From NCBI GenBank assembly GCA_022361095.1, contig JAKSBO010000589.1:1-19688 (forward strand): a stretch of DNA of 19,688 nucleotides. The letters are read 5' to 3'. The notes beneath the pieces are model-generated. The model had not been told where the DNA came from. It saw only the letters and a program-made list of their open reading frames with translations, and made no database searches. The translations under genes were made by a program, and so were the position numbers. This DNA is from Desulfobacterales bacterium. GTDB lineage: Bacteria > Desulfobacterota > Desulfobacteria > Desulfobacterales > Desulfobacteraceae. This document shows, in pieces, positions 4,130 to 16,372 of this stretch; the stretch's first letter is position 1, and the number at the start of each line of letters is the position of its first letter.

Positions 4130-4264
4130 GGAGATATCGCACGCACGCCTTGCTATCAAGATTTTGCAGTGGCTTAATACATCTGTATTTTTTGGTGCCT
4201 TGAGGCTTAAATTTTTATGGTTTTTACTTTGTTGGGTTTGCGCGTTTTATAAAAAAATATGTTC

Positions 4265-4331
4265 AATCTCTATAACGTCCTTGGGCCGACCTGGTCTATC
4301 AACGTCCAGGCTCGACCCAAACGAAACATTA
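4265..4331 (-). repeat. Hairpin repeat copy 1
   Basis: The best-folding copy. On the plus strand 4283-4294 (gggccgacctgg) pairs with 4306-4318 (ccaggctcgaccc): 12 pairs with one bulge and one G-T wobble, loop around tatcaac. Its outer flank 4311-4331 is the inverted counterpart of 4561-4581, with 19 of 21 positions identical by hand count. Confidence 0.65.
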
Positions 4332-4354
4332 ACGTCGCTTAGTAACTTAATTGG

Positions 4355-4422
4355 TACTTTCATAGAACAGCCTGGGTTGACCTGACATATCAACTGCCAG
4401 GCATGGTCCACAACAAATCTTG
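4355..4422 (-). repeat. Hairpin repeat copy 2
   Basis: Same orientation as copy 1, about 90 bp downstream. The shared core is GACCTG, TATCAAC and CCAGGC. Pairing is reduced to TGG (4373-4375) with CCA (4408-4410) and CCTG (4381-4384) with CAGG (4398-4401). The segment 4361-4400 matches the reverse complement of 16326-16366 at 34 of 41 aligned columns (hand count). Confidence 0.6.
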
Positions 4423-4562
4423 AAAGATCTGTGAAACTTACCCAGACTTTCTTATAAGAAAATTCTTTCGATATTCGCAGTAAGTTTAGCTACCGTGAAA
4501 ACTCCGGTCGTTCCGTGGCTGTTCCTAGGTTAGAAGGGCCACTCGATTATTAAATCTCTTTT

Positions 4563-4630
4563 ATGTTTCGTTTGGGTTGAGACGATGCGCTGATAAGCCC
4601 CGATCACCCCATGGCTGTGACTTGAGATTC
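4563..4630 (+). repeat. Hairpin repeat copy 3 (inverted relative to copies 1 and 2)
   Basis: Begins with the exact 15-mer inverse of copy 1 (atgtttcgtttgggt) and ends in ATGGCTGTGA, like copy 4. Pairing: GGGT 4574-4577 with ACCC 4606-4609, GA with TC, CG with CG, loop containing CTGATAA. Confidence 0.6.
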
Positions 4631-16240: not shown

Positions 16241-16302
16241 ACATCAGTTTATATTTTCAGAGGGTTATATATAAGAACGTCCGGGTAAGTTGCCCAGATC
16301 TT

Positions 16303-16372
16303 TCAACCTTTGTTGCGGGCTAAGCTTGGCAGATGATATGTCAGGCCAGCCCATGGCTGTAATATGAAATTT
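16303..16372 (+). repeat. Hairpin repeat copy 4 (12 kb from copies 1-3)
   Basis: GGGCT (16317-16321) pairs with AGCCC (16348-16352), and GCTTG (16324-16328) pairs with CAGGC (16342-16346) including one wobble, around a loop with TGATA. The 3' flank ATGGCTGTAATATGAAA matches copies 2 (inverted) and 3. It lies between the terminator and the end of the convergent kinase gene. Confidence 0.6.

Follow-up and report, generated by a model that had tools for sequence, protein, structure and literature searches.

A family of short, gene-less hairpin elements that probably jumped into many intergenic gaps of sulfate-reducing bacteria

Repeat units in the window

The DNA that we analysed, referred to here as the window, is a 19,688-nt stretch of a draft Desulfobacterales genome (contig JAKSBO010000589.1). 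An initial annotation had placed in it four copies of an intergenic repeat, near 4.3, 4.4, 4.6 and 16.3 kb, and profile scores and pairwise matches confirm both their positions and their relationship: copies 2 and 4 are 83% identical across 84 nt (4373-4456 versus 16270-16353), and copies 1 and 3 are 71% identical across 49 nt. Copies 1 and 2 are real, but they are not separate repeats. They are two head-to-tail units of ~94 nt on the minus strand (4273-4457) and make up a single tandem element, in which the 5' member is an A-type unit (copy 2; 4366..4457, profile score 74.7 bits, covariance-model match of 62.6 bits at 4365-4457) and the 3' member is a B-type unit ending in GTTA (copy 1; 4273..4367, 60.1 bits, with no covariance-model match at E ≤ 0.01). 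Comparison of orthologous loci and junctions with genome G016 gives the full extent of the inserted A-B element as 4272..4458 on the minus strand, and its flanks correspond to an uninterrupted TTTATAGAGATT site at the orthologous loci of G016 and G006. On the plus strand, these flanks resemble by eye the remnants of an older, decayed host unit: a left remnant at 4245..4271 (compared with the G016 and G006 orthologues, and without a profile score of its own) and a right remnant at 4458..4523 (compared with G016), the latter including a right-end fragment at 4496-4523(+) with a weak profile match (E = 0.99). The other two copies are also on the plus strand. Copy 3 is a decayed unit at 4534..4618 (33.7 bits, E = 2.4e-9, no covariance-model match at E ≤ 0.01), and copy 4 is a single A-type unit at 16269..16362 (79.7 bits for 16270-16360; covariance-model score 70.3 bits).

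A second inverted repeat, CCATGAGAATTT ... ATTCTCATG, occurs in the gap between KH-domain and substrate-binding-protein genes at five loci of the same genus (L101, L102, L106, L110 and L112). Just its decayed right arm is present in the window, at 4207-4236, and it is unrelated to the units.

The unit has the frame TTTATAWGAAAG-HP1-CTTTCANNNTTTGTTGTG-HP2-RTGGCNGTTAT, with two hairpins in fixed order between a fixed left end (TATAWGAAAG) and a right end in terminal TTA(T). The bodies of HP1 and HP2 vary freely inside these ends, and unit length ranges from 68 to 119 nt (90-99 nt in 84 of 106 aligned units). The hairpin seen by the initial annotation therefore stands, but as one of two in a unit of ~94 nt rather than as a repeat of ~67 nt, and the "common 3' flank" that it described is the unit's own 3' end, followed in arrays by the start of the next unit. 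In copy 4, HP1 is predicted at 16275..16304 (+) from the sequence and the unit's fold, and HP2 at 16312..16357 (+) from sequence, fold and pair counts in 106 units; its foot is GTTGC/ATGGC, where the family consensus is GTTGT/RTGGC. Terminal inverted repeats are absent: the first 12 nt match the reverse complement of the last 12 at a mean of 3.9 and a maximum of 7 positions.

One strand of the unit folds better than the other (-41.9 versus -29.7 kcal/mol for an A unit and its complement, and -29.2 versus -22.4 for a B unit), largely because of the conserved wobble pairs U-G, U-G and G-U at the HP2 foot. Among 103 distinct units, these three pairs are retained in 92, 97 and 91, respectively. 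Long forms of HP1, built from short direct repeats, occur in G005 and in Desulfotignum. Such bodies (for example AGCTAACAGCTAAC, GCCGTCAGCC and GAGTATTGAGTAGTGAG) were seen at L262, L276, L293, L297, L303, L307 and L325 and at L421 and L431 of G005, and at the two G005 loci their two halves are mutually complementary. Five loci of G020 (Desulfocicer vacuolatum; L163, L165, L166, L167 and L168) have a GC-rich structured insert, GAGCCGCCCCCCGATGGGCAATAGG..., before the same kind of right end. This multi-copy form resembles a cargo-bearing relative of the unit; no gene was noticed by eye within the 700 nt viewed in these long elements.

Abundance and genomic context

Many more copies exist in the window's own genome and in relatives. 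A search of the own genome gave 43 matches at E ≤ 0.001 from 40 scored of 254 first-look candidates, and in total this draft contains at least 120 units; they form 82 arrays, of which 46 are single, 34 double and 2 triple. Head-to-tail arrays are common. Because only 40-72 candidates were scored per genome, unit counts are lower bounds. Using a profile built from 55 units, we found family matches in 26 of 59 genomes, the own genome included. They comprise 17 of 18 other genomes of the same genus (the sole exception is G011, and G008 and G014 have just 3 matches each), 7 of 17 genomes from other genera of the family, and 1 of 23 from other families of the order; the 59 genomes yielded matches in eight genera besides the window's own. 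Profile scans of 20-kb stretches gave densities of 72 units per Mb in G016 and 20 in G005, where the stretches were evenly spaced, and of 153 in G020 (120 with a narrower profile) and 37 in G027, where they came from contigs chosen for a match or for Y1 genes.

The family is present well beyond chance expectation: the exact right-end pattern had 21 matches in G005 and 12 in G023, whereas the same pattern read backwards had 0 in both. At least 105 stretches of named genomes matched the framework pattern. Among the 80 loci listed with their hosts, these were Desulfobacter, Desulfotignum, Desulfocicer, Desulfobacula, Desulfamplus, other Desulfobacteraceae/Desulfobacterales and a deltaproteobacterial MAG (two contigs), together with one contig each labelled Pseudodesulfovibrio, Desulfarculaceae and Chloroflexi. 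The Chloroflexi match has no convincing hairpin and may be due to chance. Plasmid records gave no match to the family.

Units are mainly intergenic: 70 of 75 in the sampled stretches have their midpoint outside simple ORF calls, which cover 81-87% of the stretch DNA. Arrays between co-directional genes are antisense to them in 56 cases and sense in 19 (p = 2e-5; overlapping genomes removed, crude gene calls). This overall bias is due to G016 (17:2, p = 0.0007) and the named contigs (17:7); the other sets gave 11:7 (own genome, p = 0.48), 3:0 (G005), 6:3 (G020, p = 0.51) and 2:0 (G027). A start codon lies ahead of 90 left ends, at a distance of 11-39 nt in 33 of them. We found no significant replication-strand bias in 20 stretches each of G016 (34:24, p = 0.24) and G005 (10:15, p = 0.42), with the origin and terminus placed roughly.

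Units were also seen at or near the ends of nine contigs of the own genome (C8, C166, C256, C313, C549, C758, C911, C953 and C1078), and the repeat itself is therefore probably a cause of breaks in this assembly.

Pairing at the 3' end of the unit

The initial annotation described conserved pairing with drifting sequence, and this is borne out in the larger family. Across 106 units the covariation score is 0.263, compared to 0.150 ± 0.005 after shuffling; none of 500 shuffles reached the observed value, and every slid structure scored 0.078 or less. The 60 units taken from the window and the sampled stretches gave a score of 0.282, with shuffles at 0.153. Both alignments were fitted to the structure and hence lean towards it. 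Folding an alignment of mixed A and B units without such guidance gave an almost structureless result with 2 pairs, after which the structure was set by hand on diverse units. Against a tree-aware null (self-written and approximate, with 60 simulated alignments), just 2 of the 30 modelled pairs were significant at E < 0.05. Covariation is present by the shuffle tests and, at these two modelled pairs, by the tree-aware null.

The strongest covarying pair lay outside the model and had been missed by the initial annotation. Its partners are a variable base in the 3' arm of HP2 (N') and another variable base, N, located five from the end of the unit, and its score of 90.3 was matched by none of 256,680 null values. 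In the 99 of 106 units that have letters at all three places compared, N' and N form a Watson-Crick pair 91 times (AT 37, GC 32, TA 12, CG 10), and the rival pairing of N' within HP2 gives 69 Watson-Crick and 15 G.U pairs. Pairing of N' with N makes a terminal hairpin, C-N'-GCC-CRT-GGC-N-G, immediately before TTA; in copy 4 the corresponding candidate hairpin is CAGCC-CAT-GGCTG at 16347..16359 (+), predicted from the sequence and the N'-N covariation of the family and overlapping the 3' arm of HP2. As judged from these base pairs, the 3' arm of HP2 has two alternative partners. Since N' can pair either upstream, within HP2, or downstream, with N, two hairpins would compete at the 3' end. Subfamilies with a short HP2, for example in Desulfotignum, show no terminal hairpin in the same register by eye.

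Much of this is also what one would expect of a functional structured RNA, either a small RNA or an mRNA leader element, that is also dispersed: a G.U-rich strand-specific fold with covariation, competing hairpins that resemble a switch, the spacing of left ends from start codons and the bias in orientation relative to co-directional genes. We consider such an RNA very improbable, because the copy numbers, the recent identical jumps described below and the replacement of stem bodies by unrelated sequence all argue against it. In addition, read-through from co-directional flanking genes does not in most cases yield the G.U RNA, since that strand lies antisense to them. Rfam 15 has no match in the window, and its hits in six relatives were just three of microRNA type, each below threshold and located in the long L061 insert. 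What survives of the earlier suggestion of a small-RNA family is thus the structure alone, with no Rfam family matching it.

Insertion sites and candidate mobilising enzymes

The site occupied by the A-B element is intact in G016 and G006, where the minus strand reads ...ATTTATAGAGATT...; at the same site the window reads ...TTCTTAT-AAGAAAG ... GACGTTAT-AGAGATT.... To the eye, the orthologous sequence looks like a decayed older unit, so the A-B pair would have inserted into another unit. By joining the flanks of 280 full units we found three further nested insertions (L244, L289 and L171), giving four pre-insertion sites in all, one orthologous and three nested. All four fit insertion behind TT (TT^AT for the window and L171, TT^CT for L289), with L244 less clear because its host allele is not known. 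No target duplication is present at these four junctions beyond a possible 2-nt TT, which may be the element's own end. At the level of sequence comparison, these sites show insertion behind TT, mostly TT^AT, in a T-rich context and without a long target duplication. A MITE of a DD(E/D) transposon was rejected on the lack of inverted repeats and of any duplication beyond that possible TT. For copy 4 and the unit at L018 we found no clean empty sites, the intergenic regions being too diverged or, in G016, occupied by other units.

Recent movement of a single unit is shown by genome G004, in which a 95-nt B unit recurs without change at three unrelated loci; two of these copies adjoin different neighbouring units. 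Insertion sites and identical copies thus uphold the movement implied by the initial annotation's "mobilised RNA", as movement of DNA. Loci L217 and L218 of G009 are two copies of one 2.5-kb stretch, 100% identical and oppositely oriented in the record, with a unit pair inside; we did not count this pair as movement because it is part of a duplication of at least 2.5 kb. Nor do we claim an age polarity within arrays (5' member younger; 23 versus 11 of 36 pairs, p = 0.06, Wilcoxon p = 0.19).

The edges of arrays in the own genome are also regular: of 66 left edges 58 read TTTAT, and of 66 right edges 49 read GTTAT. Tandem arrays, free inner sequence and a better-folding strand are shared with integron attC-type cassettes, which are moved by a tyrosine recombinase acting on the folded strand. 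The attC core, however, is GTTRRRY, whereas the unit's junction is GTTAT/TTTAT, and units are scattered genome-wide instead of on one platform; we regard this explanation as extremely improbable.

We looked for a mobilising enzyme among three kinds of gene. Y1 transposase genes were found at 7 places in the own genome, and 15 of 16 further genomes also have them; they were not detected in G023 (80% complete), though units are present there. TnpB is in only 7 of 17 genomes, and Y2 is in 16 of 19 (not in G005, G023 or G055). Near the 37 Y1 and 19 TnpB loci fetched (174.5 kb; the Y1 loci are the best Y1 matches, mostly IS200-type, and a subset of the Y1 places) there were 7 units of at least 35 bits, or 9 at a looser cut, which is close to the sampled density of 60 in 1.209 Mb. 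Near 20 Y2 loci (65.9 kb), units occurred only at L415 of the own genome, around a 69-aa Y2 fragment. At the loci sampled we saw no link of the units to Y1, Y2 or TnpB genes, and none of the three stood out there as the mobiliser. In G005 and G023, 26 of 30 right ends have a left end within 81 nt and 4 do not. Taking these four and seven more, we ran Pfam on 16 ORFs upstream of the 11 right ends without a near left end (the ORF listing separately followed 8 loci) and found no transposase: the ORFs belong to ordinary metabolic or regulatory families, with 3 lacking a family.

How the unit relates to REPs was raised by the initial annotation, which called it REP-like. This is right in kind. Like REPs, BIMEs and REPINs, as outlined in PMC3733652, PMC6006769, PMC8266576 and PMC12306157, the unit is intergenic, hairpin-forming, present in high copy (20-153 per Mb) and strand-specific in its fold, and like them it was likely moved in trans. 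It differs in having two hairpins per unit, in forming direct arrays where REP/BIME/REPIN arrays are described as alternating in orientation, and in length, at 68-119 nt against the published ranges of 14-65 nt for the short REP palindrome. REPs also carry a GT[AG]G or CGTC tetranucleotide at the hairpin foot, according to PMC6006769 and PMC3733652. Within 8 nt of the foot, we found none of GTAG, GGAG, GTGG or CGTC at HP1 (0/106) or at HP2 (0/89 with a findable foot), so the unit falls outside the REPs on both tag and length. GGAG is also counted as a REP tag. A true REP/RAYT system, with the units as REPs moved by a REP-associated tyrosine transposase (TnpA-REP), gains from the high copy number, intergenic position and hairpins, and from Y1 proteins of RAYT-like length, longer than IS200 TnpA, in the own genome and others searched. 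With no tag, no clustering of units at the Y1 loci fetched, and units in G023 where Y1 was not detected, we judge it improbable. The RAYT-like gene in L035 also adjoins a different short repeat, GTGTCCCCGGATT-like: this Y1 gene (219 aa, L035 1207-2000) is beside the short direct repeat GTGTCCCCGGATT/ATGTCCCCGGATT, possibly its own REP and distinct from the unit family.

In its anatomy the unit matches the PATEs (palindrome-associated transposable elements). Those of Haloquadratum walsbyi are described in PMC3119063 as lacking terminal inverted repeats and a long target duplication, having near-terminal palindromes and being too short for a transposase, and the unit agrees with that account in each of these features and in its high copy number. 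It differs in its hosts, its head-to-tail arrays, its competing 3' hairpins and the lack of a related IS605 parent in the genomes sampled. With IS200/IS605 ends, as outlined in PMC6006769, it shares hairpins near both ends, a short target to the left and the lack of inverted repeats, but it contains no tnpA or tnpB and shows no detected replication-strand bias. The initial annotation had named a match to a known transposon end as a refuting outcome; none was found among four IS200-type elements of Desulfobacteraceae that we compared, whose ends are unlike those of the unit. That the units are true PATEs, end pieces left by an IS200/IS605 parent that is now lost or rare and whose transposase once moved them, would suit these shared features and the fixed ends around free inserts. 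We think it rather unlikely, since none of the four pairs of ends compared is unit-like, units are not enriched at the Y1 and TnpB loci fetched, and the 16 ORFs scanned upstream of the lone right ends gave no transposase.

Taken as a whole, the initial interpretation is partly supported. We favour, with moderate confidence, the view that the family is a non-autonomous mobile DNA element. By analogy, it would work most like PATEs and REPs, and we read it as a new, strand-asymmetric element mobilised in trans as they are. An enzyme supplied in trans would recognise the top strand in its folded, single-stranded form, since the conserved G.U/U.G pairs of HP2 would let only that strand fold fully. 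It would cut beside the terminal hairpin and join the strand behind TT, much as the HUH enzymes of IS200/IS605 and REP systems do, and switching from HP2 to the terminal hairpin and back may expose or hide the cut site. Arrays could then grow at the TTAT left on both edges, and would form because it remains there. Against the non-autonomous element stand the failure to find an autonomous copy or a cognate enzyme in the genomes sampled, the lack of enrichment at the Y1 and TnpB loci fetched, the genomes in which Y1, Y2 or TnpB was not detected, the different ends of the four IS200-type elements, the lack of the replication-strand bias that HUH elements can show, the 2 of 30 modelled pairs that pass the tree-aware null, and the short-HP2 subfamilies without the same terminal hairpin. 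A bolder proposal, which we hold to be doubtful, is that the unit represents a separate single-strand class, in which the 3' arm of HP2 would switch between an upstream and a downstream GGCNG partner and so control cutting behind TT, with a mobilising enzyme other than Y1 or Y2 and not tied to TnpB, and with unrelated hairpin cargo accepted within the fixed ends.

The repeat is not described in the literature searched (titles and abstract openings, with few subscription papers covered), and among Desulfobacter and related bacteria it would count as abundant. Desulfobacterium autotrophicum has been reported to contain 2357 exact repeats of at least 50 bp (PMC2702500). The unit may help to explain why genomes of this kind hold so many repeats and assemble in fragments. 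The three-way pairing at its 3' end yields a concrete prediction for the recognition and cutting of a folded single strand, and which enzyme mobilises the unit can now be tested directly.
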